In this document: one piece after another, positions 9,801 through 36,337 of the stretch | Layout of the letters: every line of letters starts with the position of its first letter | How positions within the stretch are numbered: position 1 is the stretch's first letter | IMG/VR virus record: IMGVR_UViG_3300028414_001077 | Coordinates: 1 to 42,492 of that record | Direction: 5' to 3' (one strand) | DNA length: 42,492 nucleotides | Source: a virus | Notes under the pieces: model-generated | The model's input: only the letters and a program-made list of their open reading frames with translations | What the model was told of the DNA's origin: nothing | Database searches by the model: none | Translations under genes and position numbers: made by a program

Positions 9801-10354
9801 TCAAGGTCAAATTGAAATCTATGTAAGTCGTTATAATCATCCATACCCTTAAACAATCTCTTACCTGTTTGTATAAGAAATTGCTCATCTGGGGATAACG
9901 CAACAAATAGACTCTTAAATGTCGGTGAATTTTTATCAGTGGGGTCTATATTATCCGAACTATATAAATCAACACCGCCCTCTCTAAAAAAGTTAATTAG
10001 ATTTGAATAACTACCATTACATATTGCTATGAATTTATAACCATTATCTAACCTTTCTGGGGTATTACCTTCATCATCATCAACCCTAAGCTTTTTAATT
10101 TTAACTTTATACTTAGTCATTGCAGCTTTTATGTGTGAAGATTTTCCACCATATAATAAAACAGAAACCTCATGCTTCAACCAAACAAATGGTTTATAAG
10201 AATGTTTCTCAATCCTCTTACCAGTTTCTGGGTCATTAATAATTAAATCTACTGTGTTATCTCTATACGAACTCTCAATTCCTATTATGTATTTTTGAGG
10301 GTCTTTACCCTCAAGAAATTGTTCTATTATTTCAAAACTAACTGCATTACTCAT
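6857..10354 (-). CDS. Family B DNA polymerase with 3'-5' exonuclease
   Basis: A 1165-residue replicative polymerase. Exonuclease motifs: FDLETEG (Exo I, 182-188), YNDANFDWPF (Exo II, 247-256) and the YLLDDLWETD region (Exo III, 395-404). Polymerase motifs: A, DFAALYP (481-487); B, KILANSFFGAYG (574-585); C, MDTDG (627-631), with D481, D628 and D630 as likely metal ligands. A KSKAMP segment near 717 corresponds to the DNA-contacting KKRY region. The thumb appears to end near residue 890 (YNVAKYLDAFNKRIKPLL). A further ~270 acidic and Lys-rich residues have no counterpart in T4 gp43 (898 residues). The C-terminal DDLIIKFEND could be a clamp-binding peptide, though this is speculative. Two host-like promoters lie just upstream, fitting early expression. 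Confidence 0.95.
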   Translation of the reverse strand: MSNAVSFEIIEQFLEGKDPQKYIIGIESSYRDNTVDLIINDPETGKRIEKHSYKPFVWLKHEVSVLLYGGKSSHIKAAMTKYKVKIKKLRVDDDEGNTPERLDNGYKFIAICNGSYSNLINFFREGGVDLYSSDNIDPTDKNSPTFKSLFVALSPDEQFLIQTGKRLFKGMDDYNDLHRFQFDLETEGLDASTDAIFQIGMRDNRGYEEVLETRGNTEQEKRDSERRNIIRFFQIIDERLPDLITAYNDANFDWPFIKRRCERLSIDITGIARTLNPNKKIRWKDSMLKLGGESELFEQTLMWGYNVLDISHSVRRAQAINSDIKSWSLKYITQFSGVAKKNRVYVPGDILNKTWSDTSDYAFNDSDGDWYKITEDRVLEKGYVVVKGDYIVQRYLLDDLWETDQVDAIYNQAAYLIAKLLPTSYMRSSTMGTAGQWKLIMAAWSYENGLGIPALEKKRNFVGGLSRLIEVGYARDVAKLDFAALYPKTQLTWGIFPSLDISGVMEGLLTYVVDKRDEFKFKMGDAKKLKSKYQDLFDKNKDKLSPERTTNAKNMISEQNKFASDFDKKQLPLKILANSFFGAYGAPYIFNWGDSDCAEETTCRGRQSLRLMLKHFKETHGFRPLVMDTDGANFALPEHINDIKYVVKANHWKTSKYEPGTELTGLESVLADFNETYMEGRMGLDIDDVCDSTINFARKNYANLIDGKVKLVGNSIKSKAMPVYIEEFLDKGVRLLLDGKGYEFIQWYYDYVSKIYNYEIPVAKIASKSKVKLTPDNYKNVYCRQKNKAGNLKSRQAHMELILKHDLKVNLGDVIYYVNTGTAKSHADIKTIKDKKTKQVVEVAFNCKLVPLVEIEKNPDYTTDEYNVAKYLDAFNKRIKPLLVCFDPEIRNDIIIDVYKDKKTKVLKLKERSAFTKKQCEMIAGKPFEESDQDSYEYVMRMSDEEIRFWDSVNKLPNFMEQEEWDELRADYKERKRIERIEGIKEEKRLLDDICMRLEIADYDEMKSKNKLPKELLGFCDLFEVDGKFMLISNKWGVELADSSILLKYEPKAKERQIYYNTLEDDVDDRYQQWLDYKESISNHKDPETVSQNMDELKADMIKFLEDNYWEMGYDGEWVRKDWDYNQTGSLTLEKAYKMEMSYQNNLDKAKNQKPDDLIIKFEND

Positions 10355-10368
10355 AAAAACTTTTTTTA

Positions 10369-10400
10369 CAAATATAGTTAATTAAATTTTTTAAAACAAA
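10369..10400 (-). promoter_or_regulatory. Bacteroidota-type promoter P1 for DNA polymerase
   Basis: On the minus strand, TTTG (10400-10397), a 20-base spacer and TATATTTG (10376-10369) match the Bacteroidota consensus at every fixed base. The ATG is only 14 bases past the -7 box, so the leader would be very short. Confidence 0.7.
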
Positions 10401-10423
10401 TTTTTAAGGAATATTCTTCTTTT

Positions 10424-10443
10424 AATCTTTTTGTAAAAAGATT
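10424..10443. terminator. AT-rich hairpin between promoters P1 and P2
   Basis: A perfect inverted repeat: AATCTTTTT, two bases, AAAAAGATT. It lies downstream of the small virion gene (minus strand) and upstream of P1. On the minus strand it is not followed by a clear T-run, so it may be a weak terminator, or a leader hairpin or operator for transcripts from P2, whose predicted start falls within or beside it. Confidence 0.45.
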
Positions 10444-10445
10444 AA

Positions 10446-10476
10446 CAAATATAATTCTTTATAAGTAAATTAGCAA
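10446..10476 (-). promoter_or_regulatory. Bacteroidota-type promoter P2 for DNA polymerase
   Basis: On the minus strand, TTG (10476-10474), a 20-base spacer and TATATTTG (10453-10446) give a second exact match to the host-type consensus, 77 bases upstream of P1. Transcripts would carry a leader of about 85 bases containing most of the hairpin at 10424-10443. Confidence 0.6.
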
Positions 10477-10485
10477 CTTTTTACC

Positions 10486-10872
10486 TTACTTTTTTATAGA
10501 ACCATCAAGGACGTTAATAAATAATTCTTCTCTGATTGGAACAATAAGTGTTCCTTCTGGATGTGCAGTACCATCTAAAAACTCAATTACAAACTGACCA
10601 ACGTACCTACCAGCCTTATTAGTATCCTTACTAGTAAATTGATATGCTATGTAGTACTCTTCATCTTCACAACCATTATATTGTGATTTAAGTATACACG
10701 TTGCTGGTTTTTTACCTATTTTTTTAACTCCAGTAACAACATCTGTCATACAGAAGTATATATCACTATTCTGTAACATATCATGAAATTCTTTATATGT
10801 ATACCTACCATCCTTAATTAATTCCATTTTAAGTATTGGTAATGTTGCTCCTTTGTTAATGTAAAAATCCAT
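10486..10872 (-). CDS. Small beta-sandwich virion protein, BppU-N-like
   Basis: A 128-residue protein that reads like the N-terminal domain of phage BppU-type baseplate proteins. It has an opening GATLPIL strand, a middle FCMTDVVTG strand, a YYIAYQFTSKDTNKAGRYVG segment where the family has 'Y-w-x-x-x-D-t-x-x-x-G-x-Y', a FVIEFLDG strand, and a final P-x-x-G-T-LIVPI strand. In siphophages this fold links receptor-binding proteins to the baseplate. Here it stands alone immediately downstream of the fibre genes, so it could be a fibre adaptor or small head/tail decoration protein. The fold call is tentative. The hairpin at 10424-10443 follows its stop. Confidence 0.45.
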   Translation of the reverse strand: MDFYINKGATLPILKMELIKDGRYTYKEFHDMLQNSDIYFCMTDVVTGVKKIGKKPATCILKSQYNGCEDEEYYIAYQFTSKDTNKAGRYVGQFVIEFLDGTAHPEGTLIVPIREELFINVLDGSIKK

Positions 10873-10875
10873 AAT

Positions 10876-10884
10876 TATAAATAT
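10876..10884 (-). promoter_or_regulatory. Late-type motif ATATTTATA at the start of the small virion gene
   Basis: Read on the minus strand, ATATTTATA ends 3 bases before the ATG at 10872. Other copies of the motif lie 11 to 45 bases from their start codon, so this copy is unusually close. If it is a -10-like element, the transcript would be leaderless or start inside the gene, so a promoter role here is less certain. Confidence 0.25.
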
Positions 10885-10908
10885 TCATTTTTTTTATTTT
10901 ATATCATC

Positions 10909-13900
10909 TTATGAAGGGGTATTCCATTTACTAACTCTAGCTACTGCTGGAATAGATGTAAAGGTACCATTAGATACTGTAACTTTTGCTTCATAATATG
11001 GGTAAGTTGCATCTTCAGGTGCCCATATTACAAAATCTACAACATCGTCTGCCGAAACCTCAGTATTTAAAGGTATTTGCCCAGATGCTGTGGTAACATT
11101 TGCTGAACCAGATGTTCCAGCTGTAGGTTCACTCCATACAACATGAACTGGACCTGTAGAAGGGTTAGTTAATACCACAATTTCAATATCATCTGTAGCA
11201 GCTTCGTCAAATAATAATCTAATATTACCATCATCGTATATCGTATAAGGGTCTGGAGAAGTTGGGGACGTATTAAATATTTCAAATGTCATTGAATCTG
11301 GTTCAGTAGAACCACTAACAACATTACCATTAGAATCAATCCCTAAGTTTGTAATTGGTGTTGTCCCACCTACATTGTTTATATTAAGATTAGGAACATA
11401 AACAGTATCGTTTGTTGTACTTGATATGTTTTTACCACCTAAAATAACACTTCTATTATGAGATATTGTGTTACCACTACCACCTATAATAACAGAATCT
11501 TCTGGTCTCCCAGGAAATGAAGATATTACATTAGAATCTCCACCTATTATAGCACCTCTACTAGTTTTAGTAATTGTATTGCCAGTACCACCTATTATGG
11601 ATGATGATATTGATGGATTTAGTCCATTGCTATTTTCCATTCTATTTTGGGAACCAGTAATAACACAAGACTCATTATTTCTTATTGTATTATTGCTACC
11701 AAAAACAGCGTTACCACTACCACCTTCAAAGTATATATAATCACCAACAGCAATATTACATAACGAATCGGTTGCGTCACTATACATTTCTACATTTCTA
11801 CCCCAAGATATACTGTAATTTGCTGAATTACCACCATATATAATTTGTGTGTTTGTAGATGTACCACCAACTAACAAACCATCTCCAATAGCTCTTAAAT
11901 TATTACCAAGTGTCATTGAGTAATTCCCCCCCAAAGTGTTACCTGAACCAGCATTAATAGAGTATAGTGCATCATTATTTATAATGTTAATCGGTGGTCC
12001 CGCATCGACACTTGGGTTAGGTGTCCCTATGTTAACGCTATCAATTACTCTTAAATAAGGAACGTAAACTGTATCATCCGTTGTACCTGTGATATTTTGA
12101 CCACCTAAAATAACACTTCTAGATACACCATTTAATTCATTGTTGAAACCACCTACTAGACCACTGAAAAAAGATGAATTAACTAATGAACCAGACGAAC
12201 CTAATATAAAACCATATTGTGTTGATGGTCCAGTGATATCGGACAAACCAGAACTTAGAATAATTGAATCACCAGCGTTATTAATATCATTGTTTACACC
12301 ACCAATTATAAATGACCTATCTGAATCCGAAGAAACATCAACAATATTATTATTAATACCACCTAAAATACCAGCTTCACTTAAATTAGAACCAGGTCTA
12401 GCTTGAATATCATTATTATTACCACCTATAATAAATGAGGTATCACCAGTTAATATATTGTTATTAAAACCACCAATAATTGAAGCATTATCAGAGTTAT
12501 CTAATTTATTATTTCTACCACCACCAATTATACTATCTGTGTTTGTGTTTAATGTTGTGTGTGCAATTGTTGTATTAGTATCTATTAATGCTCCTGTTTG
12601 TGAAGTCCAATAAATACTACTACTTGATGTACCACTAACAACATTACCACTTGAATCAATACCTAAGTTATTTACCGATGTTCCTGTACCTAATGTTCCA
12701 ATATTAAGTGTACCACTTATTTTAGTATTACCACTAACATCTAACTTTTCTTGAGGGTTTCTAATACCAATACCCACATTACCCTTAGTACTACCACTAC
12801 CATATAATGTTAGTGTTGGTGTTGGTGTTGATAATGGGGTGTTACCAGCATAAAACAATAAACTATCTTCCTTATCACCAATACTCGACTCACCATTTAC
12901 AATATGGAAATTATTAGTTTCACCATAAGCATTTAAAAAAGCATCGTTAGCCTCACCAAATTGTCCCAATTGAGCAACAGGAGTTGAACCTACAATACCT
13001 AAACCAACACCATATGATGGGTTATCACTAACTGCGTTAAACACAGTTAAACCACTAGAATCTAAAGATTTTACATAAATTTCACTTCTAATTCTATCAT
13101 CGCCAAGTCTATTACCATCGGTATCTATCATAACTCTACCAGTAGAACCACTAAATTGACCTATATAGGTATTGTCATTTGTCCCTACAGATAATTTACC
13201 ACTTATTTTAGTATTACCACTAACATCTAACTTTTCAGTTGGCGTTGCAGTACCAACTCCTACATATCCTCTTGTACTTCCTGAACCATGAACATGTAAA
13301 TGTGGTGTTACACTATATTGTTCACCAGCAAAAAAGTTAATATTATCACTACCACCTGGTGAATTGACAAAATTTAAATCATTAGCGTTACTTGATGCCA
13401 CTATTGCAGTATCACTATTTTCTCCATATATAGCAAGATTTGAATATCTATTATCAGATAAAGCTATTATTGCAATACCTTCTGACCCTGTAGAAACATT
13501 ATTCACGATATTGATTGCTGTTGAACCACTTGGAGTATCATAAGATTCAAAAAGAGTATGATTACCAAATCTACCATCTGGTAAATAATCTGATTCTACA
13601 TTAAATCTTACACTACCACCTGTTCCATCAATGTGTAATTTAGCAGTAGTAGCACTAAGTCCAATTCCTATATTACCATCAATATCAATGATAAAAGGTG
13701 TTGCATCTGGATTAGCTTCATCCTCCACTAAAACAATAGGTTGACTACCTGAAGTAGAGTATACATGTAATGTAGCCTGTGGTACTAAACTATTTGTACC
13801 TATACCAACCTTATTAGCTGATGATACTACTAAAGGGCTAATACCAGTATTGTCACTATCAAACCTTAATAAGTTTTCACCTCCACTTAATACAGACCTA

Positions 13901-14658
13901 AAGTTGTATTGAGAACCATCATTAGTGTTTTTAATCCTAAATGCTCTTTCTGGTGATGCATCATCATACTCTATCTGTAGTTTAGTATTAACCGAACTAG
14001 CACTCATACCGATACCCACATTACCACTATTATAATGTATACCATTAACATTTGTTGACCATAAAGAAGAGGTACCACCAGTAGTTCCACTAACAACATT
14101 ACCATTAGAATCAATCCCTAAGTTAGTAACTGATGTAGTCCCACCTATATTGTTTATATTAAGATTAGGAACATATACTGTATCATCAGTAGCACCTGTT
14201 ATATTCTGACCACCTAAAACAACACTTCTATCACCTGTTACTAATGAATTTGTTGAATGTATGAATGATGTTAAACCACTAGCAGTTGAAGAAACCCCAC
14301 CAGAATGTGAGGCATTACCACTAGCCAATGTATTAAATCCTTGAGCAACAGAATAGTTACCTGTAGCATCTAAACCACTATCATTAATTGTTTTAATTGA
14401 ATAGAATCCAGTTGAACCAGAAGTCCAATAATCACTTCCACCACCAGAACCAACATTAAAAGATAAATCATTACCATTTATCTTTTTAAGTGTTACTAGG
14501 TTACCAACTGTTGTGGCACTATATATTAGTTCACCTCTAAGATATATAAAGTTATTATCAACATCAATATGTTTTAATACTGACGATTTAGTTATATCTG
14601 GTGTTGGTGTTATCCATGGACTTATTAAAGTCCTAAGTATTAAATTATTATTTGGCAT
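10909..14658 (-). CDS. Tail fibre with YadA-like head repeats
   Basis: A 1249-residue fibre. Residues 1-70 form an N-terminal domain shared with the next fibre (LILR, SPW, ITxxxxLxHxDxDNNFIxLxGE), probably the virion anchor. Then follow repeats of two kinds: YadA/Hep_Hag-type units (SIIGGFNNNI, SVILGGQNI) and VGIGT-type units (YVGVGTATPTEKLDVSGN). Three copies of a DTVYVP module recur along the gene. The C-terminus is an Ig-like or beta-sandwich domain ending in VARVSKWNTPS and has no S74 chaperone. YadA-like heads are trimeric left-handed beta-rolls that often bind host surfaces. The gene is 38 bases downstream of the related 1590-residue fibre on the same strand. Confidence 0.85.
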   Translation of the reverse strand: MPNNNLILRTLISPWITPTPDITKSSVLKHIDVDNNFIYLRGELIYSATTVGNLVTLKKINGNDLSFNVGSGGGSDYWTSGSTGFYSIKTINDSGLDATGNYSVAQGFNTLASGNASHSGGVSSTASGLTSFIHSTNSLVTGDRSVVLGGQNITGATDDTVYVPNLNINNIGGTTSVTNLGIDSNGNVVSGTTGGTSSLWSTNVNGIHYNSGNVGIGMSASSVNTKLQIEYDDASPERAFRIKNTNDGSQYNFRSVLSGGENLLRFDSDNTGISPLVVSSANKVGIGTNSLVPQATLHVYSTSGSQPIVLVEDEANPDATPFIIDIDGNIGIGLSATTAKLHIDGTGGSVRFNVESDYLPDGRFGNHTLFESYDTPSGSTAINIVNNVSTGSEGIAIIALSDNRYSNLAIYGENSDTAIVASSNANDLNFVNSPGGSDNINFFAGEQYSVTPHLHVHGSGSTRGYVGVGTATPTEKLDVSGNTKISGKLSVGTNDNTYIGQFSGSTGRVMIDTDGNRLGDDRIRSEIYVKSLDSSGLTVFNAVSDNPSYGVGLGIVGSTPVAQLGQFGEANDAFLNAYGETNNFHIVNGESSIGDKEDSLLFYAGNTPLSTPTPTLTLYGSGSTKGNVGIGIRNPQEKLDVSGNTKISGTLNIGTLGTGTSVNNLGIDSSGNVVSGTSSSSIYWTSQTGALIDTNTTIAHTTLNTNTDSIIGGGRNNKLDNSDNASIIGGFNNNILTGDTSFIIGGNNNDIQARPGSNLSEAGILGGINNNIVDVSSDSDRSFIIGGVNNDINNAGDSIILSSGLSDITGPSTQYGFILGSSGSLVNSSFFSGLVGGFNNELNGVSRSVILGGQNITGTTDDTVYVPYLRVIDSVNIGTPNPSVDAGPPINIINNDALYSINAGSGNTLGGNYSMTLGNNLRAIGDGLLVGGTSTNTQIIYGGNSANYSISWGRNVEMYSDATDSLCNIAVGDYIYFEGGSGNAVFGSNNTIRNNESCVITGSQNRMENSNGLNPSISSSIIGGTGNTITKTSRGAIIGGDSNVISSFPGRPEDSVIIGGSGNTISHNRSVILGGKNISSTTNDTVYVPNLNINNVGGTTPITNLGIDSNGNVVSGSTEPDSMTFEIFNTSPTSPDPYTIYDDGNIRLLFDEAATDDIEIVVLTNPSTGPVHVVWSEPTAGTSGSANVTTASGQIPLNTEVSADDVVDFVIWAPEDATYPYYEAKVTVSNGTFTSIPAVARVSKWNTPS
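11311..11454 (-). repeat. SVILGG/DTVYVP fibre module, copy 1
   Basis: About 145 bases encoding RSVILGGKNI, NDTVYVPNLNINN and TNLGIDSNGNVVSG. It is nearly identical in DNA to the copy at 14088-14229 at the other end of the same gene. Confidence 0.75.
12057..12120 (-). repeat. SVILGG/DTVYVP fibre module, copy 2
   Basis: A shorter copy encoding RSVILGGQNITGTTDDTVYV. The sequence after DTVYVP differs from copies 1 and 3. Confidence 0.7.
14088..14229 (-). repeat. SVILGG/DTVYVP fibre module, copy 3
   Basis: Near-identical to copy 1 in DNA and protein: RSVILGGQNI, DDTVYVPNLNINN, TNLGIDSNGNVVSG. Confidence 0.75.
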
Positions 14659-14669
14659 AACTTTTTATT

Positions 14670-14678
14670 TATAAATAT
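14670..14678 (-). promoter_or_regulatory. Late-type promoter motif upstream of fibre gene
   Basis: ATATTTATA on the minus strand, inside a palindrome (TATTTATAAATA), 11 bases before the fibre ATG at 14658. It would allow the second fibre gene to be transcribed independently of the upstream fibre. Confidence 0.4.
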
Positions 14679-14696
14679 GTAGTTTTTTTTTATTTA

Positions 14697-17600
14697 TTAT
14701 TTAGTAGTAGTAACTGTTAATGTAGAAGCTCTACCATCACTAGTTGCAAATCCTATCGTACCTCCATCACCAGGTTCAGTTTGGTAAACGGTTATTTCTT
14801 GACCATCAATACCGCTAGTAATATTAGCTGCTACATTACCAGTAGTTTCGGTGATAAACCAATTCGAACCAGCTACCCCATCATCAGCCTTTACATTTGC
14901 ACTATTGAAGTTATTAGTTGTATGTACATAAACCTTTTGAGAACTAGCTGCAATATTTACAGATGTAACAATATTACTAAGGTTAGGTGACCCGAAATAT
15001 ATTCTAGTATCACCACCAATAGGGTCATTAGTATAAAAGAATCCAGGTATATCACCAAATATATTTTTATAATGAGATTTTATATACCAATTAATACCAT
15101 CACAATAAAAAGTTATTGAGTCACCATTAGTTATATTAACTGAACTATAATATTTATCTATTTTTGTAACACCTGGTGCTACTATTACAATACTTTGTTT
15201 ACCACCAACATGTTTTACAACGACTTCATTACCCTTTGATTCAGAACTAATTACTGGTAAGATAAAATCAGGTGTGTTATTCTCTTGAGTCTCCCAAGTT
15301 AATACTTTTGTAAAGGTATTTTCTAATAAATTATAACTACTACCAAAAGAAATATTTTTTACATTAACATAATCAAGTTTTAACCCATAATAACCCCAAG
15401 TAGTATTACCTTCATCGTCTGAAACTAATACTTTACCAGCACCTTGTGAACCATTATTTAATGTAAATCCACCATCAACAATAACCTTATCATTAGTTAA
15501 ATCAATAGTCATTGTTTTCTTACTATCATTAGGCCAAGATGCTCCAGCACCTATAGAGCTTTGGAAACTAATTGATTCGTCAGCTTGTATTGATAGTATA
15601 GCATTTTCTGCGTCATTATCAGCGGATATGATATTTACATTATTACCACCAGAGTTCATTATCAACCCGTTATAACTAATATCTGCCCCACCATTATTAA
15701 AATATGTTGTTAATTCAATAGAGGTTTTGTCTGTATCGCCAGTACCACCATTCCTTATTTGAATACTTGAGGACGTATCAGAAGTACCACCAATATTTTT
15801 ATGTTTTAATATTAAATTATTAGTGAAATTACCTACACCACTAATACCACCATAAGTTAAATTACTATACTTACTTTCAACAGATAAAATATCTGATGTA
15901 CTATTAGGATTAGTAATAAGTGTACTTCCAGCAACCTCTAATTTATTGGTTGGTGATGTTCCATTACCAATACTAACATTACCACCATTAGTGATATATA
16001 ATTTACCACCAGCAGTTTCACTATTTCTACCTATTTCAAACCCATCAGCCCCACTAGAAAAAGACCTTGAACCCATCAACCAATAATCCTGATTACCAGT
16101 AAAACCACCAGCAGTATTTAAAAATCTAATAGCTGAATTATCAAACCCAGAACCTTCAATATGTAACTTATTTTGTGGTGAATTAGTACCAATACCTACA
16201 TTACCTGAAGGTAAAGAATACATATTATTACCGTTAACACTCCAGTCATTATCTGCTGAATTTAACGGACTTAAATCAACACTATATGTCTGACTATCGT
16301 TACGATTAAATGTAAGAGTGTTATTACTTAATGAAACTGATTCTGTAAACGTATCAGCGTCCTCAGCATTTTCTAAGTCACCTAACCTATCTTTTAATGG
16401 TTGTAACATTGTAGAAAGGTCAACACTATATAAACCATCACCATTTACATTATTATCAAAACTAATAATTTCACCGTTAAGGTTAGCGGCAGTAGTATAA
16501 CTATCAGTAAGTTCTTTTGCAAATCCAGAAACTTCAAAAGTAGTACCCACATTTGTTGTATAAGTTACTATACCTGTTGACGGGTTATATAAACCGCTAA
16601 CAACATGAATATCATTATCAGTAAATAAGGCAGCTGCATTAGTCACTTCAAAAGTTCCACCATCTGTGTTAGTGAATATTAATTTTTGATTTAAAGCATC
16701 TACACTACCTTGATTAACATATACATCATCAATCGATAGTATTGACTTGTTAATACCATCTAATTCACTCTGTAAACCAATAACATCACTAATTGTATGT
16801 GTATGAGCAGTGCTAGTTAGATTATCGAATGAAGTTTGATGTGGGTTATTTATATCATTAATATGTTCATTAAGTAATTCATTAACTTCTTTAATATCAC
16901 CACTATTTGACTTAATCACTTTATCAAAATCTCCTAATGTTGTTTGTGTTGTACTAGTATAAGAATTAAATAAATTAGTAATATTACCATTACCAACTTC
17001 AACAGACTTACTAACCTCCTCTACCCTAATATCTTGTAAAGTATTGGTCCAACAGTTAAAATTAGATTCATTAACTGGCATATAATCAGCAAAATCTAAA
17101 TCACCAGAAGCCTCTATTTCTTTTATTTGAGCCTTTGTTTGTTTTAAATCCTCTTGATTTTGTTTTATTTGTTTCTCTAGTTGATTAACAAGTTCTTCAT
17201 TAACTGGATTTTGATTTTTAGTATCAAATAATTGAGATTGTAAATCTGCTATAGTAACTTCTAATTGTTGTACACTATTTTGTAGTGCATCATATTCGTT
17301 CTTAGTATTTGTATAATTTTCAGCTAATGCTCTATATTCAGTGAATGAATCTAATGAACAAACACCTCTATCATTATAACCAATATTATTTACTACCTCA
17401 TTAATAGTTTTATTTATTATTTCTACTTGTTCAGTTACATTATTATTGGTTATATTAATTTCATTACTTAATGATTCAGTCTGCTTAGCATTAACCCAAC
17501 AATTAAAATTAGCCTCATTAACTGGTATGTAAGCTACGAAATCTAAATCACCAGAAGACTCTATCTCTTTTATTTGTTCTAGAGTTTGTTTTAAATCTAC

Positions 17601-19469
17601 TTCATTCTGTTGTATTTGACCATTTAAAATATCACGTTCTTCTTGTGTTGTTGCATTAACTAATTGAGATTTTAAATCGGCAATATTGGTTTCTAAATCT
17701 TGTTTATAAGATTGTAGCACATCATATTCGTTATTAGTATTTGTATAATTTTCAGCTAATGCTCTATATTCAGTGAATGAATCTAATGAACAAATACCTC
17801 TATCATTATAACCTATAGTGGTAATAATATTATTTATTTGTTCTTCTTGTATTTCGTGAAAAAATATATCTCTCCAACAAGTGAAATTAGCCTCATTTAA
17901 TGGTGTGTATTTTTGAAAAAACTCATATCCAGATTGGTCAGCTCTTAAACTAGTATTATACCATTGATTTATTTGTCCACCCAAAAATGAAATATTTTGG
18001 GTATAAGATTTTACAGCTTGTACTTCATTAGCTGCTAACTCTTTTAATTGTGATTCTATATAGGCAATTTGTTCTTCTAATAATGCTATTTGTTGTAGTT
18101 CTTCTGGAGTAGGAGATACAATCTCTTTTAAAACATCTAATTCATTTTGTTTACTAGATAAATCATTTTCCAGTTGATTCTTTTCAGAAATATAATTAGC
18201 GTGTTCTTGATTTCTTATCTCTTGAATGTTTGATAATTCCTGTTCTAATTGTTTAATTGATTCTTGTTCTTTTAAACTTTTTTGATATAGATTTTCATAG
18301 AGAGCATACATCTTGTATGAACATTCCCCTCTATCATTATAACCAATAGATTTAATTACTTCACTTCTTAACCAACAATTAAAGTTAGCCTCATTAACTG
18401 GCATATATATTATAAATTCTAAATCACCAGAAGCCTCTATCTCTTTTATTTGGGCATTTGTTTGAGCTAAATCCTCTTGATTTTGTTTTATTTGTTTCTC
18501 TAGTTGATTAACAAGTTCTTCATTAACTGGATTTTGATTTTTAACATCAAATAATTGTGATTGTAAATCTGCTATAGTATCTTCTAATTGTTGTTTATTA
18601 GATTGTAATTCATCATAAACTTTTTTAATCTTTGTATACTCATGAGATAAATGTTCATATTCAGTATATGATTTTAAAGAACATTCACCTCTGTCATTAT
18701 AACCTACAGAATTAATAACATCATCTAATATAGGACTTATATCAACACTATAGATATCATCACCTTTAATATTACTATTAAAATATATTGTATTACCTTT
18801 AAGATACGCTTCATCAGTATAACTATCTGTCATACCACTTGTAAACCCAGATATCTCAAAAGAACCACCTTCATTATTAGTAAGTTTTACAATACCACTT
18901 TTAATATCATAAACACCACTAACAACATTTAAGTCAGTAAATGATTTAATATCCTTATACTTTACATTACCATTGTCGTCTCTAACTAAAACTTGTGTAA
19001 GTGAATTATCATTAGCTGGTTCTATATTGATGTTCAGTTTAGGTGCGTAAACAATAGTATCTGTGTTACCACTACCTTTAATTTTTACCTCATTTTTTCT
19101 GTTATCAACCCACTCCCAAACACTATTGTTTTCAACATCTGATTTAAATTCATTTATTGTTGTGTTTATGTTAGTAACATCAGTGTTGAAGTTATTTTTA
19201 ATTTCATCCGATGTGTCAGAAAGTACTCTTAACGAATCTTCATTGGTTTGAGTTAATGCACTTAAATTAAGTTCTATATCTGCACCGCAAATTTTAGTTA
19301 ACTTTAATGTTTCACCATCTAATCGTGCTGAATCAATTACTTCACCCTTCAAGAAGATGAAGTTATTATCTAAATCTGCATGTGTTAAAGTAGTTCCTCT
19401 AGTTATATCCGAATGTTGTGTTCTCCACGGAGAACCCATTTTTCTAAGTATTAATCTGTTACTAGGCAT
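14697..19469 (-). CDS. Giant tail fibre with tandem coiled-coil repeats
   Basis: A 1590-residue fibre. Residues 1-70 match the N-terminal domain of the 1249-residue fibre (LILRKMGSPW, HADLDNNFIFLKGE). From about residue 253 to 808 four repeats follow. Each opens with IGYNDRG-x-CS, continues as a Gln/Glu/Asn-rich helical hairpin with heptad spacing, and closes with (P)xNEANFxCW. Then come NDSQTYSVDLSPL-type beta repeats, a VGIGTNSPQNKLHIEG unit, and a C-terminal beta-domain region including SITFYCDGINWYIKSHY and a final domain ending RASTLTVTTTK. The mix of rigid beta-shafts and helical hairpins suggests a jointed long fibre. No S74 chaperone is seen. It lies 9 bases downstream of the LamG-like gene, so both are probably in one transcript. 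Confidence 0.88.
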   Translation of the reverse strand: MPSNRLILRKMGSPWRTQHSDITRGTTLTHADLDNNFIFLKGEVIDSARLDGETLKLTKICGADIELNLSALTQTNEDSLRVLSDTSDEIKNNFNTDVTNINTTINEFKSDVENNSVWEWVDNRKNEVKIKGSGNTDTIVYAPKLNINIEPANDNSLTQVLVRDDNGNVKYKDIKSFTDLNVVSGVYDIKSGIVKLTNNEGGSFEISGFTSGMTDSYTDEAYLKGNTIYFNSNIKGDDIYSVDISPILDDVINSVGYNDRGECSLKSYTEYEHLSHEYTKIKKVYDELQSNKQQLEDTIADLQSQLFDVKNQNPVNEELVNQLEKQIKQNQEDLAQTNAQIKEIEASGDLEFIIYMPVNEANFNCWLRSEVIKSIGYNDRGECSYKMYALYENLYQKSLKEQESIKQLEQELSNIQEIRNQEHANYISEKNQLENDLSSKQNELDVLKEIVSPTPEELQQIALLEEQIAYIESQLKELAANEVQAVKSYTQNISFLGGQINQWYNTSLRADQSGYEFFQKYTPLNEANFTCWRDIFFHEIQEEQINNIITTIGYNDRGICSLDSFTEYRALAENYTNTNNEYDVLQSYKQDLETNIADLKSQLVNATTQEERDILNGQIQQNEVDLKQTLEQIKEIESSGDLDFVAYIPVNEANFNCWVNAKQTESLSNEINITNNNVTEQVEIINKTINEVVNNIGYNDRGVCSLDSFTEYRALAENYTNTKNEYDALQNSVQQLEVTIADLQSQLFDTKNQNPVNEELVNQLEKQIKQNQEDLKQTKAQIKEIEASGDLDFADYMPVNESNFNCWTNTLQDIRVEEVSKSVEVGNGNITNLFNSYTSTTQTTLGDFDKVIKSNSGDIKEVNELLNEHINDINNPHQTSFDNLTSTAHTHTISDVIGLQSELDGINKSILSIDDVYVNQGSVDALNQKLIFTNTDGGTFEVTNAAALFTDNDIHVVSGLYNPSTGIVTYTTNVGTTFEVSGFAKELTDSYTTAANLNGEIISFDNNVNGDGLYSVDLSTMLQPLKDRLGDLENAEDADTFTESVSLSNNTLTFNRNDSQTYSVDLSPLNSADNDWSVNGNNMYSLPSGNVGIGTNSPQNKLHIEGSGFDNSAIRFLNTAGGFTGNQDYWLMGSRSFSSGADGFEIGRNSETAGGKLYITNGGNVSIGNGTSPTNKLEVAGSTLITNPNSTSDILSVESKYSNLTYGGISGVGNFTNNLILKHKNIGGTSDTSSSIQIRNGGTGDTDKTSIELTTYFNNGGADISYNGLIMNSGGNNVNIISADNDAENAILSIQADESISFQSSIGAGASWPNDSKKTMTIDLTNDKVIVDGGFTLNNGSQGAGKVLVSDDEGNTTWGYYGLKLDYVNVKNISFGSSYNLLENTFTKVLTWETQENNTPDFILPVISSESKGNEVVVKHVGGKQSIVIVAPGVTKIDKYYSSVNITNGDSITFYCDGINWYIKSHYKNIFGDIPGFFYTNDPIGGDTRIYFGSPNLSNIVTSVNIAASSQKVYVHTTNNFNSANVKADDGVAGSNWFITETTGNVAANITSGIDGQEITVYQTEPGDGGTIGFATSDGRASTLTVTTTK
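17047..18713 (-). repeat. Four tandem coiled-coil repeats bounded by conserved Cys motifs
   Basis: Protein-coding tandem repeats at about 18713-18370, 18350-17873, 17820-17495 and 17390-17047 (transcription order). Repeats 1, 3 and 4 are 108-115 residues; repeat 2 is about 160 and divergent inside but keeps both end motifs. Repeats 1 and 4 share long identical stretches, such as NQNPVNEELVNQLEKQIKQ, and much DNA identity. Confidence 0.9.
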
Positions 19470-19478
19470 AACGTTTCT

Positions 19479-21197
19479 TTATTTGTATCTATTTTTTATT
19501 TTATTATAATTATTTGTAATTTCACACCAATCTAAATCACAGATGTAAAATTTAAATTGTGAGATATCACCCACAAATGTTCCAGCGTAATTTTCTTGGA
19601 TTATTAAATTCAAATCATCATTATCTTGACCATCAAAAGTCATTGACTCTAAAAGACCTTGAGAACCACCACCTAATGACATATTAAATGGTACCCCTAG
19701 TTGTTTATCTTTATATTCATTAAGTCTATTAGATATAAACTCATCAACATCATCAACAACGAACTTAAGTTTTGAATCTATATAAAACATAAGTCTACCC
19801 TTTCTAGGTTCACCATATTTTAAATCACACTCATCATATTCTGGCATTGAGAATCTCACAACTATATTGTGCCATTTATTATCTTCAACAACACCACTAA
19901 GTGAATATTGTTCTTCAATGGTAACACCAGTTGTATAAGTGTCTCCAGAACAATAACCTGTTAATTTAAGAGCTCTATATCCAATACTACCATCATCTTT
20001 TATTCTAAATCCAATTGCATTGTCTATAATGTCTGCATTTTTATCTAATTCAAGCAAATCTGAAGTAAAACCACTAAAGTCACAAACAGTCTTATTACCG
20101 TAACCACTTACTGGGTTACCACAACCACTACACTTACGATTACCACTAGCTTGACCAAAAATAAGAAATGGGTTTTGTGTATTTGTTACTTCTTGAGTAT
20201 AACCAGTTACTGTGATAGAACCCCCTGTGAAATCACACACAGTTTTTTTACCATAACCGCTTATAGAGTTACCACATGTAGCACACCTATGATTATCACT
20301 AGCTTGACCATATATTAAAAATTGGTTATCAACCTCTTCTATATTAAGTGGTGGTGGTGATAAATTAATTGGATATCCCTCACTACCAATAAATGAAACA
20401 TCAGTTTCTTTAGGTATTGTACAAAATGTTGTTACAGTTCCAGTACATCCAGTATCAGCAGTACAACCACTAGTACATCCAGTATTATTACCTTCAAAAA
20501 CGTTCCAATATTTATTTTCCGCTCTTGTACCCATATAAAAGAAAAATCCTTTATTATTTGGGTATGTAACATTAAGAGTATCAGTATTACCACTATGACA
20601 ATATAATTCATTTTTATTTAACCAAAAATCAGCAACCCAACCCTTTGGTACTCTAGTTGGTAGTATTTCATATGAATAACCATCTAATTTATAATAACCT
20701 TGGTAGAAACCACCACAAAGTGATAAATAATTACCAGTGGTACCACTACTATTAGTTATTTCAAATGGATATTCATAATTACCAGTAGCACCTGTAACTC
20801 TTGTTAATGTTAACCTAGTGTCGCCAGAAGGTATTATTGTTGTTGTACCACTAAGTGTGTGTGTTAAGCCTGTATTACTAGTATCACCACTATTCTTAAT
20901 ATATTCTATATAACCATTATCAATACCAGTTAAACCAAACGTTTGGAATGTATATCCAGTATTTGTAGCTTCAGACCACGTAGATAAACTATATATGGTA
21001 TTTGCTGATGTTGACCCAGTTGAAAATATATTTGGATTATTAAAATCGTAATGAACCACTAAACAATCACCAGATATAACAGTATCACACACACATGGTG
21101 CAGAAACTTCATCTTGAGCAAGATATAAGTCATAATATTGACTATTACTCAAGTACATATCTATTTTATTAAAATTGTAGTTTTTTAAATTACCCAT
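19479..21197 (-). CDS. LamG/concanavalin-like adhesin with Cys-rich repeats
   Basis: A 572-residue protein. An early segment (CLVVHYDFNNPNIF) and a late segment (EDNKWHNIVVRFSM, FYIDSKLKFVVDDV, GDISQFKFYICDLDW) are typical strands of laminin-G/concanavalin-type sugar-binding jelly rolls. Between them, near residues 290-375, lie two copies of a unit with FGQAS or YGQAS, CxxCGN, SGYG-x-KTVCDF. Several CTSGC and CTGT segments precede it. The protein is probably a virion-bound carbohydrate-binding adhesin or fibre tip. It shares a strand with two flanking fibre genes, 2 bases after the S74 fibre and 9 bases before the coiled-coil fibre. The start is at 21197 (MGNLKNYNFNKIDMYLS). No enzyme active site is recognised. 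Confidence 0.7.
   Translation of the reverse strand: MGNLKNYNFNKIDMYLSNSQYYDLYLAQDEVSAPCVCDTVISGDCLVVHYDFNNPNIFSTGSTSANTIYSLSTWSEATNTGYTFQTFGLTGIDNGYIEYIKNSGDTSNTGLTHTLSGTTTIIPSGDTRLTLTRVTGATGNYEYPFEITNSSGTTGNYLSLCGGFYQGYYKLDGYSYEILPTRVPKGWVADFWLNKNELYCHSGNTDTLNVTYPNNKGFFFYMGTRAENKYWNVFEGNNTGCTSGCTADTGCTGTVTTFCTIPKETDVSFIGSEGYPINLSPPPLNIEEVDNQFLIYGQASDNHRCATCGNSISGYGKKTVCDFTGGSITVTGYTQEVTNTQNPFLIFGQASGNRKCSGCGNPVSGYGNKTVCDFSGFTSDLLELDKNADIIDNAIGFRIKDDGSIGYRALKLTGYCSGDTYTTGVTIEEQYSLSGVVEDNKWHNIVVRFSMPEYDECDLKYGEPRKGRLMFYIDSKLKFVVDDVDEFISNRLNEYKDKQLGVPFNMSLGGGSQGLLESMTFDGQDNDDLNLIIQENYAGTFVGDISQFKFYICDLDWCEITNNYNKIKNRYK
20075..20330 (-). repeat. Duplicated CxxCG unit in the LamG-like adhesin
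   Basis: Two ~33-residue copies (about 20330-20231 and 20180-20078) encode FLIYGQAS or FLIFGQAS, then C-x2-C-G-N, SGYG-x-KTVCDF. The spacing and the third Cys are conserved. Confidence 0.8.
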
Positions 21198-21199
21198 TA

Positions 21200-23872
21200 T
21201 TAAAATGTTTCAAGTCCAGTTCTCCTCCAACCGTTTTTAGTCCTTATATATAAGTATTCATCATCTCTCGTAACTTCACCTATTTTACCATTATTATCAT
21301 TACTAGATGTTGGGGTAAATTCTGGTATCACTAAACCATCAGGTTTTAAGTGGGTATTTGTAGTCCAATCACCAGATGAATCAACCATAAGTGTTGCATC
21401 ATTATTTTCATCAATACCCTTAACAACTGTTAAACCACCATCAAGTGACGATTCATGAGTACCACCATAATTTAATTCTATATTATTATCTTCAGAAGCG
21501 ATTGTTTGTGTTTCAAATATTAATTCTTCTTTACTAATATTAGTTACACCACTATCAATTAATTCTTTAATAGCTTCAACAAGTAATGCTGTAACATCTT
21601 GATAATGAACTCCCATTAACTTATCTTCAGTTCTTTCATTTCTGAATGTTAATTCTGGTACAATCTTTTCAACCTCTTGTGCTATAAATCCTATTCTAGT
21701 GTTATCTGTAACACCTCTATCAATATCTTCTTTCCATTTATAGTATACACCTCTAAGTTGTTTAATCTTTCCTAACGCACTATCAATAGTGATTATTTCA
21801 TCTTTCATTCTTTCATCTGATATACTGGTTGTTAAAACACCATTAGCATCATAATGTAAAGCACCAGCTGAAGCAGTTGCACCTATATTTCTAAATCTAC
21901 CATTACCATCAACATCAATTTGTTGTGTAGGCGATTCTGTTGCGATACCAACATAACCTTGAGTAATACCTGTACCTTGTATGTGCATATCAGCAGTACC
22001 ACTAGCATCTTGACCAGCATAAAATCTAATATAATCCGCACCACTACTAGCACCAGTACCATCAGCAGAAATAATATTTAAACCATTACTACTAATTCCA
22101 GCATATATGTGCATATCACCAGGTTGACCATAAGTTGCGTAAATAACGTCATCCCACGCTCTAATACCAATACTACCACCAGCGCCAGTACCAGCACCTC
22201 CAGTACCAACACTCATTTGATACCTAACTAACTTTGATGAGCCAGATATTGCAAAAAATGGACCAGCTGAATAATCCATATCACTATACAAAATACCACC
22301 AGGTTGTGTTACGGTAAGATTATTCATATACACTGTATCGTCAGCTGTAGCTGTAATACCTTGACCCCCTAAAATAACACTTCTACCAATACCAATATTA
22401 ATTGTATTACCAGTACCACCAACTACTACTGAACTATTTGAATTATTTATAAAATTATCTTCACCACCTAAAATAGACGAGTCATTAGAGTCATAAATTT
22501 TAGATATGCTTGAACTAATTATTGACGATGAGCTACTACCAGTAATTGTTACGTCATTACCACTATCACCTCTTGAACCTAAAATAACTGATGAGCTTGT
22601 AGTATCAACATAAGACCTAAAAGAACTAATGATAGAAGAAATATTACCACTAGTTAAATTAGATGAAGCAGAACCCAATATAAGTCTTTCACTACCATCA
22701 CCTATCATATATGAAGTGTTACTAGCACCTATCATATTTCTTCTAGCTATTGTAGCACCACTTATAACACCATTAAATACCCCCATAATTAAATTACCAG
22801 AATGAAAATCGCTGTCATTACCATATATTTGAGCATCTACTGAACCAAAAATATTAGTACGTCCATTACCAGTTATCCCACTATCTACAGAACTAATAAT
22901 TGTTGATGTATTAGAACTCATAATAGTGGAGTCATTTGAAGCTACTATAGCCTCACCATTACCTATTGCTCCAAAATGAATTGTATTACCAGTACCACCA
23001 GCAATTACTGAATCAGTATGTCCAGAAGTTATTGTGTTTAAGTAACCACCAATAATTGCTGACCTATTAGAAAGATTATTAATATTATTATTAACACCAC
23101 CTAAAATACCAGAATTAACAGAAGTATCAATAGTGTTAGCCTCACCACCAGCAATTATTGAAAAATCAGAAAGACCATTAATAGTATGACTACCTTTTTC
23201 ATCCTTAAGTGCACCATTACCAGTACCATCCTCTTCCCAGAATGTTGCACCAGATGTTGCAGCCGAAACTGGACTCCATATTGCCTCACCCTCAACACTA
23301 TCACATGTTAAAACATAACCAACTGAAGGGTTATTTGTTACAATAAGTCTATTTGTTCTTGTTATCTCTGGATTATCAATCCAAATTGTTCTATCTTTAT
23401 AATCAAGTGTCCCAGCACTTAAAAAGTCCACTTCGTTATGGGTTACAGTACCACTATATACTGGACCAGCACCACTAAAAATAGCGTTAACAGCTAAATC
23501 AAAACTAGTTCCTGTATATTCTAAATTTATATTATATCCATCAAGAGTTGTACCTGTAGAACTTACAACAAATACATTTCCAGTATTTTGTGTAATACCA
23601 CTATTTGAAGATGTTATTGCTGATATTGAAGAATTTGCAATATCCATTCTTGAGTCATACCAAGTGAAGTTCGTTGTTACTGCATTTCCACTAAAAGTAC
23701 TAACAACTGTAGTATATGATTCAGTAACAGCACTGTTGCTTGGGTCAACTCCTGTAGTCAATGCACTAAAAGGTACTCCAAACACCGTCCCACCAGAAAG
23801 ATTCGTTAAAGTTCTCTCTCTTTGTTTTATCTGTCTATTATCTGAATAATCTAATTTTGTTCTAAAACCCAT
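21200..23872 (-). CDS. Tail fibre with C-terminal S74 intramolecular chaperone
   Basis: The ATG at 23872 (MGFRTKLDYSDN) is preferred: a longer in-frame version from 23947 would run over the divergent promoter region and overlap the next gene. The product is 890 residues. An N-terminal anchor region is followed by many YadA-head-type units (SIIAGGEANTI, SGILGGVNNNI, SVILGGQGI), one DTVYM module and a GYVGIATESPTQQIDVDG unit. Then comes the S74 chaperone: SISDERMKDEIITID, YYKWKEDIDRG, RIGFIAQEVEKIVPEL. S74 domains fold the trimer and cleave themselves off, normally before the Ser of the SDxRxK motif. About 110 residues after the core end in YLYIRTKNGWRR. It is the first gene of the fibre block and starts near a late-type motif. 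Confidence 0.92.
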   Translation of the reverse strand: MGFRTKLDYSDNRQIKQRERTLTNLSGGTVFGVPFSALTTGVDPSNSAVTESYTTVVSTFSGNAVTTNFTWYDSRMDIANSSISAITSSNSGITQNTGNVFVVSSTGTTLDGYNINLEYTGTSFDLAVNAIFSGAGPVYSGTVTHNEVDFLSAGTLDYKDRTIWIDNPEITRTNRLIVTNNPSVGYVLTCDSVEGEAIWSPVSAATSGATFWEEDGTGNGALKDEKGSHTINGLSDFSIIAGGEANTIDTSVNSGILGGVNNNINNLSNRSAIIGGYLNTITSGHTDSVIAGGTGNTIHFGAIGNGEAIVASNDSTIMSSNTSTIISSVDSGITGNGRTNIFGSVDAQIYGNDSDFHSGNLIMGVFNGVISGATIARRNMIGASNTSYMIGDGSERLILGSASSNLTSGNISSIISSFRSYVDTTSSSVILGSRGDSGNDVTITGSSSSSIISSSISKIYDSNDSSILGGEDNFINNSNSSVVVGGTGNTINIGIGRSVILGGQGITATADDTVYMNNLTVTQPGGILYSDMDYSAGPFFAISGSSKLVRYQMSVGTGGAGTGAGGSIGIRAWDDVIYATYGQPGDMHIYAGISSNGLNIISADGTGASSGADYIRFYAGQDASGTADMHIQGTGITQGYVGIATESPTQQIDVDGNGRFRNIGATASAGALHYDANGVLTTSISDERMKDEIITIDSALGKIKQLRGVYYKWKEDIDRGVTDNTRIGFIAQEVEKIVPELTFRNERTEDKLMGVHYQDVTALLVEAIKELIDSGVTNISKEELIFETQTIASEDNNIELNYGGTHESSLDGGLTVVKGIDENNDATLMVDSSGDWTTNTHLKPDGLVIPEFTPTSSNDNNGKIGEVTRDDEYLYIRTKNGWRRTGLETF
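22325..22384 (-). repeat. SVILGG/DTVYV-type fibre module, copy 4
   Basis: Encodes RSVILGGQGITATADDTVYM. This is the same module as the three copies in the 1249-residue fibre, here in a different gene. Confidence 0.65.
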
Positions 23873-23889
23873 AATTAAAAATCTTTTTA

Positions 23890-23898
23890 TATAAATAT
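23890..23898 (-). promoter_or_regulatory. Late-type promoter motif upstream of the S74 fibre
   Basis: ATATTTATA on the minus strand, 17 bases before the ATG at 23872. It faces a second copy at 23913-23921 on the other strand, so the 64-base gap looks like a divergent late promoter pair. Confidence 0.5.
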
Positions 23899-23912
23899 TA
23901 TCGTTTTCGCTT

Positions 23913-23921
23913 ATATTTATA
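23913..23921 (+). promoter_or_regulatory. Late-type promoter motif upstream of gene 23937
   Basis: ATATTTATA ends 15 bases before the ATG at 23937. It is the plus-strand partner of the divergent motif pair and lacks a TTG box 20 bases upstream. Confidence 0.5.
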
Positions 23922-23936
23922 ATAAAAACAATATTT

Positions 23937-24575
23937 ATGAAATTCACTAAAAAAGAATTTGAGAAAAACTATTCACCTAAAGGTGATGATGTAAAAAAGG
24001 AAAGCGAGGATATAGAAGAAATCGCTGATATTGGTGATATTGAATTTGGTGGTGATAAACCAGAATTATTTGCTGTTAGTCAAATAACTACGAATACTCA
24101 AAAATCACATGATGATAATTCAGATTATGAAGAAGATATACCTACAACTGGTGACGACTATGCAACTATGACTAAAAATAAATTAAGTAGGTTTCATCCC
24201 TTTGGTCCAAACATGGGTAATCCTTTTGGCGTTGGTGGTGTATATGAAAACTCAACCAACGAAGAAGCTAAAGGAAAGATGGAGGATTTAATTAAAGAAT
24301 TACTCAGTAAATATAATTCCAGTAGGGAAATAGTAGATAAATTAAATCCAGAAGATATTAACAATAATAATATAATGGATATTGATGAAATTGATAAACC
24401 AGATGTTATTACAACTATGAATAAGTTTATTACAGCTATTTCAAGTTCTGAGTTAACTGAAGATGAGTTTGGTGCTGTTATGTACCATACAATTAAGACT
24501 ATTTCTGATAAGGGTGTTGATTTTAAAAAGATACCTAAAATAATAAAAGACGAAATTAAAAAAATCATAGGATAA
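23937..24575 (+). CDS. Unrecognised protein, acidic N-terminus
   Basis: A 212-residue protein that I do not recognise. The first ~85 residues are highly acidic and low in complexity (KKESEDIEEIADIGDIEFGG). A middle FHPFGPNMGNPFGVGGVYE segment is rich in Pro, Gly and Phe. The last ~100 residues are predicted helical and Lys/Glu/Ile-rich. No signal peptide or membrane segment is seen. The acidic start and helical tail would fit a capsid scaffold or an internal virion protein, but this is only a guess from position beside structural genes and a late-type promoter. It overlaps the next start by one base (TAATG). Confidence 0.6.
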   Translation: MKFTKKEFEKNYSPKGDDVKKESEDIEEIADIGDIEFGGDKPELFAVSQITTNTQKSHDDNSDYEEDIPTTGDDYATMTKNKLSRFHPFGPNMGNPFGVGGVYENSTNEEAKGKMEDLIKELLSKYNSSREIVDKLNPEDINNNNIMDIDEIDKPDVITTMNKFITAISSSELTEDEFGAVMYHTIKTISDKGVDFKKIPKIIKDEIKKIIG

Positions 24576-26578: not shown

Positions 26579-27853
26579 ATGAGTAAGAAAATTAAAGTTT
26601 TAGTAGTCCCTAGTGACCGTACTGGAGTAGGATACTTTAGAAGTACAAAACCACACATTACATTAGAAAATAACCATTCAGATGAATTTCATGTAGATAT
26701 TGATTATGAACCAAAAATTCATGATGATAATTTCTTAAAACAATATGATGTTATCCATTATCATAGAAGTCTTGGTCCATTTGAAAATATGGACAAAGTC
26801 CTAGATAGATGTGATGAACTTGGTATTGTAACCATGATGGATATTGATGATTATTGGTCTCCAGGTAAACATCACCCAGCACACTTAATAATTAAGCAAT
26901 CTGAAATGGATAAGAAAATCTTAAATAATATTAAGATTGCTAGAAATGTTGTTACAACAACACCATTATTTGCTGAGGAAATTAAAAAGTACAATAAGAA
27001 TGTACACATATTACCAAACGCAATTGACCCTAATGAAAAACAATATACCTCAAACCCAGAACCATCAGATAAGCTTAGGATTGGATGGTTAGGTGGAAGT
27101 AGCCACCTTAAAGATTTAGAATTATTAGGTAACTTTATAGCTCAATTAAAAAGTAATAATTTAATTGATAAAGTTCAAATGGTTTTGTGTGGATTTGATT
27201 TAAGAGGTAATGTAACAATTATTGATGAAAAAACTGGTCAAAGAAGGCAAAGACCTATACAACCACACGAAAGCGTTTGGTATCAGTATGAAAAAATATT
27301 TACCGATAACTACTCTATCGTTAGTGAAGATTATAAGAAACACTTGTTAAGTTTTAAACAAGAAGAATATGAAGGTGTTGAAAATGAAGGATATAGAAGA
27401 GTTTGGACAAAACCAGTATCGACATACGCTACTAATTATAATCTATTTGATGTTTCTTTAGCACCATTAGAAGAACATATCTTTAATAAGGTAAAATCAC
27501 AATTAAAGGTTATTGAGGCTGGATTCCACAAAAAAGCTATTATAGCTCAAGACTTCGGACCATACCAAATAGACCTAACAAGTTATTATGATAGACCACA
27601 AAAGGGTCAACATGAATTACCTGTAAACCCAGATGGTAACGCATTATTAGTTAAGTCTAATAAAAACCATAAGGATTGGTTTAGAAATATTAAGAGATTG
27701 GTTGAAAATCCAGAATTAGTTACGGAACTAAGTTCTAAATTATATGAAACTGTTAAAGACACTTATAGTATCGATGCTGTAACTAAAAATAGACGTGATT
27801 TATACGTTAAGTTATTAGAAACAGTTAAAAAAAATAGTGAAGCTATTGCATAA
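26579..27853 (+). CDS. Glycosyltransferase, GT-B fold (GT4-like)
   Basis: A 424-residue GT-B enzyme. The N-terminal Rossmann half starts IKVLVVPSDRTGVGYFR and contains the DVIHYHRSLGPFENM and TMMDIDDYWSPG segments. The C-terminal half starts around KLRIGWLGGSSHLKDLELL, where GT4 enzymes bind the sugar nucleotide. A late KVIEAGFHKKAIIAQDFG segment takes the place of the GT4 'E-x7-E' region. A ~50-residue insert (about 210-275) in the middle is unusual. It probably transfers a sugar from a nucleotide sugar; donor and acceptor are unknown. It is the first gene of the operon and has its own late-type motif. Confidence 0.85.
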   Translation: MSKKIKVLVVPSDRTGVGYFRSTKPHITLENNHSDEFHVDIDYEPKIHDDNFLKQYDVIHYHRSLGPFENMDKVLDRCDELGIVTMMDIDDYWSPGKHHPAHLIIKQSEMDKKILNNIKIARNVVTTTPLFAEEIKKYNKNVHILPNAIDPNEKQYTSNPEPSDKLRIGWLGGSSHLKDLELLGNFIAQLKSNNLIDKVQMVLCGFDLRGNVTIIDEKTGQRRQRPIQPHESVWYQYEKIFTDNYSIVSEDYKKHLLSFKQEEYEGVENEGYRRVWTKPVSTYATNYNLFDVSLAPLEEHIFNKVKSQLKVIEAGFHKKAIIAQDFGPYQIDLTSYYDRPQKGQHELPVNPDGNALLVKSNKNHKDWFRNIKRLVENPELVTELSSKLYETVKDTYSIDAVTKNRRDLYVKLLETVKKNSEAIA

Positions 27854-27881
27854 AATAAAAAAAAGTAATAAATTTGTTGTT

Positions 27882-28307
27882 ATGAAAAATAAAGAAAAAT
27901 TAATGTTAGTGTTCGACTTTATAAGTGATTACCTAATAAACGAAGGCAATGTAAACGATACGGAAGTTGAAGTTGATAAAGTAAGAACCTCATTTGAAGG
28001 TACAATGGGAAGAGCTCATGATATAATGAAAAAGGTAGAGGAAATGGATAAAACTGATGCTAAGATTAAATCAGCTGTAAATAACGCTACTAAACCGTTG
28101 AAAGAAGCAATTAATAAGGTTAAGACTTTGCATAAAGAAGAATCAGAGCTAAATAAGAAAACTGAAGAAGTTAAAGATTTAACAGAAAAGTTTACAGAAA
28201 GAACTGGTGTTACTTTAGATGATGAAGGTAAATTAGTTGAAGTTAAGGTTGGACCATTAAAAGAGTACACAACCATATCACAACTTATGGAAGATATTAA
28301 TAAATAA
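27882..28307 (+). CDS. Unrecognised coiled-coil protein
   Basis: The ATG at 27882 is preferred to an upstream ATG at 27837, because the longer version would overlap the glycosyltransferase end by 17 bases. The product is 141 residues. A short helical N-terminus (KLMLVFDFISDYLINEG) is followed by a long Lys/Glu-rich heptad region (about 40-110) that should form a coiled coil. It ends in a small strand-helix segment (VGPLKEYTTISQLMEDINK). No family is recognised. It lies between a glycosyltransferase and nucleotide-metabolism genes. Confidence 0.6.
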   Translation: MKNKEKLMLVFDFISDYLINEGNVNDTEVEVDKVRTSFEGTMGRAHDIMKKVEEMDKTDAKIKSAVNNATKPLKEAINKVKTLHKEESELNKKTEEVKDLTEKFTERTGVTLDDEGKLVEVKVGPLKEYTTISQLMEDINK

Positions 28308-28318
28308 ATTAGTAAGTT

Positions 28319-28873: not shown

Positions 28874-28880
28874 GAAACAT

Positions 28881-29465: not shown

Positions 29466-29472
29466 AAATGAT

Positions 29473-30540: not shown

Positions 30541-30551
30541 AAATTTAACTT

Positions 30552-36261: not shown

Positions 36262-36273
36262 CAAATATAAAAC

Positions 36274-36304
36274 TTGATTTATAGTACAATATAACCTATA
36301 TTTA
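36274..36304 (+). promoter_or_regulatory. Bacteroidota-type internal promoter before methyltransferase
   Basis: TTG at 36274-36276, a 20-base spacer, and TATATTTA at 36297-36304, followed by a leader of about 27 bases to the ATG at 36338. The spacing is identical to the helicase and polymerase promoters. TATATTTATA also contains the late-type motif, so this site may serve both phases. Confidence 0.5.
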
Positions 36305-36337
36305 TAGTAATATAAAAATAAAAGATATAGTTCAAAT

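Follow-up and report, generated by a model that had tools for sequence, protein, structure and literature searches.

Known insertions in the stalks of trimeric autotransporter adhesins are the FGG module, in which three beta strands are inserted, and the saddle, which is likewise not helical (PMC7247746). Disulphides in phage tails have been described for Agrobacterium phage Milano, where they are found in tail and receptor-binding proteins, join different subunits, and lock sheath and baseplate (PMC10811340). The fibre considered here comes from an uncultured large phage and is encoded on a virus contig of 42,492 bases (the window, i.e., the whole stretch of DNA analyzed). It contains four tandem repeats spanning positions 17049-18710 on the minus strand, each bounded by a Cys-containing motif at either end. 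An FGG-type beta insertion is absent, the insert being predicted as helical and free of strands both in this virus and in a second one, G002, and a family of YadA-like C-terminal anchors is not among the Pfam matches of the full window protein. The features of the fibre open reading frame (ORF) are as follows.

14697..19469, minus strand: fibre ORF with the repeat array, a single ORF of 1590 amino acids
19245..19469, minus strand: N-terminal domain, aa 1-75, common to the adjoining fibre and to fibres of relatives (blastp)
18711..19073, minus strand: pre-array segment, aa 133-253, whose counterpart directly precedes the G002 array
18372..18710, minus strand: repeat R1, aa 254-366, 113 aa, Cys 263 and 365, VGYNDRGECS / NEANFNCW
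18351..18371, minus strand: linker R1-R2, 7 aa, 9 residues from W to GY
17874..18350, minus strand: repeat R2, aa 374-532, 159 aa, Cys 383 and 531, IGYNDRGECS / NEANFTCW
17820..17873, minus strand: linker R2-R3, 18 aa, 20 residues from W to GY
17496..17819, minus strand: repeat R3, aa 551-658, 108 aa, Cys 560 and 657, IGYNDRGICS / NEANFNCW
17388..17495, minus strand: linker R3-R4, 36 aa, 38 residues from W to GY, predicted helix
17049..17387, minus strand: repeat R4, aa 695-807, 113 aa, Cys 704 and 806, IGYNDRGVCS / NESNFNCW
16980..17048, minus strand: first part of the post-array segment, aa 808-830, predicted helix (model residues 151-169)

When aa 1-75 are used as blastp query, 14 fibre ORFs are retrieved from the collected loci; the identity is 49% with the downstream fibre and 49-54% with other fibre ORFs of the same slot. 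This domain is the probable common anchor of these fibres, and the array ORF is classified, from its sequence, as a phage tail fibre of the group that the shared domain defines. A module of the type NPHxTSFxxLxSTAHTHTIS is present once in the window fibre, after the hairpin array, while a further fibre gene on the near-identical contig (L020:16312-19604, a 1097-aa frame) contains such modules repeatedly.

According to the preliminary description, each repeat would begin with IGYNDRGxCS and end with NEANFxCW. Both end motifs are present in four of four repeats, except that R1 starts with V instead of I and R4 ends with S instead of A, which gives [IV]GYNDRGxCS and NE[AS]NFxCW as the consensus. 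Ten Cys residues are found in the ORF; the eight of the motifs are the only ones in the array, and the remaining two (61 and 1456) are located outside. The likeness of R1 and R4 that had been noted is reflected in 77% amino acid identity, followed by 60% for R3, and R2, described as longer and divergent, is both the longest (159 aa versus 108-113 aa) and the least similar to R1 (44%).

When the four window repeats are combined into a profile and compared with the ORFs of relatives, the array of G002 (IMGVR_UViG_3300030102_006951, an uncultured phage, 158 kb) is matched at E 1.1e-83, a value that derives in part from coiled-coil composition; single copies with both end motifs score 1e-14 to 1e-16. 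The G002 fibre (L069:9544-16608) comprises 2355 aa, is located in the same gene slot, and has seven divergent copies, H1 to H7. It is a true relative of the window fibre, with which it has in common the slot, the N-terminal domain, the pre-array segment (47% identity between query aa 133-303 and L069 11578-12069), and the module with both end Cys. Since both end motifs occur in each of the four window copies and an independent virus has them as well, the repeat is not a product of chance. The start motif of the G002 copies ranges from [IV]GYxxRGxC to [KR]GxC, and their end motif is N[ED]xNFxCW. The end Cys pair is kept in 11 of 11 copies (four in the window and seven in G002, including the long H1 and H4), which come from only two virus lineages and do not represent 11 independent observations. 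Across the nine aligned copies, G8, C10, Y18, P104, N106, E107, N109, F110, C112, and W113 are invariant. The G002 fibre differs from that of the window in its higher copy number, extra Cys pairs, CC linkers, and long inserted heads in two copies (H1 and H4, in each of which more than 100 residues are added while the enclosing end motifs are unchanged). Found in G002 only are two further helical inserts in the beta-roll and a protein end that follows about 200 aa past the array.

AlphaFold2 was run for a single chain on the nine aligned copies, and one repeat was modelled from each of the two viruses (R4 and H7). The predicted order along the chain is an axial helix, the loop with the first Cys, an antiparallel helical hairpin, the loop with the second Cys, and the next axial helix; for both viruses, the confidence is high in the hairpin. 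In the R4 model, the hairpin helices comprise residues 45-93 and 100-138, mostly with pLDDT of 95-98, and are flanked by helices 2-37 and 151-169; in the H7 model, the helices comprise 16-70, 88-123, and then 139-165. The base motifs of R4 are of low confidence (block pLDDT 49-60). In H7, by contrast, the region round the end motif reaches about 90. By heptad analysis, 57-88% of the core a/d positions are hydrophobic compared with 5-16% of the remaining positions, i.e., there is a single stripe; such low values outside the core would make the hairpin likely to be solvent-exposed rather than packed in a bundle. The tandem coiled-coil hairpins first proposed from the letters of the sequence are, as far as these two models and the heptad analysis predict, borne out. 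Comparison of the model with PDB structures yields generic antiparallel hairpins, among them that of LSD1, aligned over model residues 40-147, and the resemblance is one of shape only. Foldseek gave no match among viral models at E <= 0.001.

Phage fibres commonly contain long parallel coiled coils, and coiled coils may fold back on themselves in a single-chain prediction. The fold-back might consequently stem from the single-chain model, with the helices forming one long axial rod devoid of side branches and the motif pairs serving as its joints. We consider this quite improbable, however, because turn-like tips with Pro or Gly are found between the two helices, the Cys pairs are symmetric about the tip, and the residues added in H1 and H4 would be easily accommodated in a branch but only awkwardly in a rod bound to its register. 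In addition, similar helical inserts interrupt the G002 beta-roll. These are the two long hairpin-like inserts at L069:10351-11400 (aa about 290-440 and 490-630), located in a YadA-head-type beta-roll. The tip loop of the second is flanked by Cys (C550 to C570) in a manner similar to the tips in the array, which suggests that the hairpins move between fibre contexts.

On balance, we favour portable, Cys-stapled helical hairpins that interrupt a probably trimeric stalk and project from it. The stalk would be made up of axial helices in a parallel trimeric coiled coil, the trimer being what we infer from fibre practice. At each repeat, the chain would exit the axis via the GYNDRGxC loop, extend outwards in one helix and come back in a second, the two forming an antiparallel coiled-coil hairpin, and return via NE[AS]NFxCW into the next axial helix. 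After the virion has left the reducing cytoplasm, the end Cys pair would close the base of the hairpin by a disulphide, most probably an intra-chain one, by which the point of departure from the stalk would be fixed. Each fibre would possess four tiers of three hairpins, which would make it bulkier or let it touch the host surface weakly at multiple sites, and the copies would have been duplicated and recombined and their tips remodelled. We likewise infer the sideways projection and a role of the hairpins in host contact or fibre spacing.

The putative disulphide staple at the base is supported indirectly by the pattern of Cys residues. Four Cys are found in each of H2, H3, H5, H6, and H7, six in H4, and three in H1. 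The five copies with four Cys have one added pair inside the hairpin, and a disulphide would for this reason be favoured over metal. The added pair of H6 (C1921/C1970) is placed symmetrically about an IPVD turn, and both of its residues are in core register (Cys scored neutral); that of H7 bounds the predicted tip loop; and an L-x-L-L stretch lies between the two tip Cys in H2, H5, and H7. The odd number in H1 counts against a staple, as does the fact that phage fibres are made in a reducing cytoplasm. Folding under these conditions would suit Cys that remain reduced as buried packing residues or that bind metal in the trimer, two per chain making six round the axis. Such a role is nevertheless improbable, given that neither a conserved His nor another ligand pattern is present in the nine aligned copies, that the hairpin Cys mostly come in twos, and that other fibres with the same N-terminal domain contain 0-4 Cys as opposed to the Cys-rich G002 array. 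Glutaredoxin is encoded by both viruses (in the window at 5353-5622; Pfam PF00462, E 4.7e-9) and thioredoxin by G002 also; as both proteins serve nucleotide metabolism as well, these genes are neutral as evidence.

Instead of closing its own hairpin, the first Cys of one chain might bond the second Cys of the next, so that each hairpin tier would have at its base a covalent ring locking the trimer. In the models, both Cys are located where the chain meets the axis, and inter-subunit disulphides do occur in Milano phage tails (PMC10811340). Suited to rings are also the CC pairs in the G002 linkers (1081/1082, 1399/1400, 1733/1734, and 2177/2178), which sit where the start motif has lost GYxxRG, albeit this correlation rests on three linkers, two of them near copies. 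Inter-chain rings are possible, above all at these CC pairs. As the general explanation of the end Cys they are rather unlikely, because the extra Cys pairs flank the tips of single hairpins, which suggests bonds within the hairpin; as these pairs belong to single hairpins, the intra-chain staple would be preferred.

The linkers preceding full GYxxRG motifs, counted from the W of the end motif to the next GY, measure 9, 20, and 38 residues in the window and 20, 20, and 9 in G002. The two 20-residue linkers of G002 are near copies, so that about five values are independent. Only three lengths are found, separated by steps of 11 and 18, which fits helical segments obliged to keep register. Within the array, R4 is a DNA mosaic of an R3-like start and an R1-like remainder: its codons 1-35 agree with R3 in 99 of 105 bases and with R1 in 75, and its codons 40-95 agree with R1 in 158 of 168 bases. 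Together with the copy numbers of four in the window and seven in G002, this mosaic indicates that the array recombines. The expansion of the array surmised in the preliminary description, for which a comparison of repeat numbers in related phages had been proposed, is supported by the mosaic and by the seven divergent G002 copies, with recombination as an additional element. The longest exact DNA matches between copies, 76 bases for R1/R4 and 61 bases for R3/R4, are shorter than usual short reads, which should therefore resolve the array; four copies are credible, and an assembly artefact is unlikely, although the near-identical contig, G001, breaks within R4.

A scan with the adjoining DNA polymerase yielded 41 loci. 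Among these and 18 whole records, the repeat is not found beyond G001 and G002. The gene order is conserved (orf212, S74 protein, orf572, one or more fibres, orf128, polymerase, orf382, helicase), and the slot at 10354-21197, between orf572 (19479-21197) and orf128 (10486-10872), is occupied by differing fibres across the relatives. At L026, L027, and L028 the slot holds no fibre, orf572 and orf128 being separated by about 500 bases, and the fibres of other relatives that have the same N-terminal domain contain no long helical runs. With conserved flanks and changing fibres, this slot is a variable fibre site, and the hairpin fibre is one of its options. Two relatives score above the cut-off of a tail-sheath profile and G002 below threshold (E 2.8e-7); judged from sequence, the group probably has contractile tails.

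Elsewhere in the window, positions 21200-23947 encode a fibre protein of 915 aa, whose S74 endosialidase-chaperone domain (aa 710-766) is followed by about 150 further residues and is thus not at the very C-terminus. A cluster at 26579-38417 comprises glycosyltransferases, a nucleotide-sugar epimerase, and a dehydrogenase, suggestive of glycan modification, and a gene resembling homing/HNH endonucleases (2061-2828) adjoins the helicase region.

The preliminary description knew of no named fibre module with these end motifs, and this holds for Pfam, PHROGs, PDB sequences, INPHARED, and the collection scans. Profile searches of Pfam, PHROGs, and PDB returned sub-threshold coiled-coil matches for the module, with R1 giving none above the curated cut-off; as these reflect coiled-coil composition, they are not regarded as relatives. 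In tblastn searches of INPHARED, the window fibre has no match, and the best matches of the G002 fibre are confined to its beta-roll. When viral contigs and bacterial genome contigs were scanned with DNA and peptide patterns, all matches other than G001 and G002 were due to chance, being located in frames that are short or unrelated; two from Caldisericia consist of 10 residues in 68-residue frames lacking any repeat and were discarded. A fibre of this kind was not found in the open-access subset of the literature.

Summarizing, we regard the module as a sequence family that is new within phage fibres, though its architectural theme is a familiar one. The parts list of these fibres gains a module that has no name in the sequence libraries and is recognisable by its end motifs, with an apparent design rule of Cys-capped hairpins and linkers in fixed steps. 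More tentatively, the architecture as a whole may be an undescribed one, in which a trimeric stalk would bear disulphide-stapled hairpin tiers at coiled-coil-quantised intervals, with number, length, and tips varied by recombination, so as to form a multivalent, tunable brush for host contact. If this is true, a fibre would grow side branches by duplication and recombination, the role of the branches in host contact could be tested, and a natural scaffold for loop display along a trimeric rod would be at hand.

Among described systems, the LSD1 tower resembles the hairpin in overall shape, being a long two-helix hairpin that aligns end to end, but is unrelated: the identity is about 15%, the context is another one, and a Z of about 10 is background for helical models. 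Milano provides the precedent for disulphides in phage tails, whereas the Cys of the array cap repeated hairpins in one fibre, where the bond is putative and proposed from the Cys pattern. Closest in concept are the trimeric autotransporter adhesins, in which a coiled-coil stalk is likewise broken by repeated inserted modules; different from these, the insert described here consists of two long helices in a hairpin, contains paired Cys, and is found in a phage fibre.
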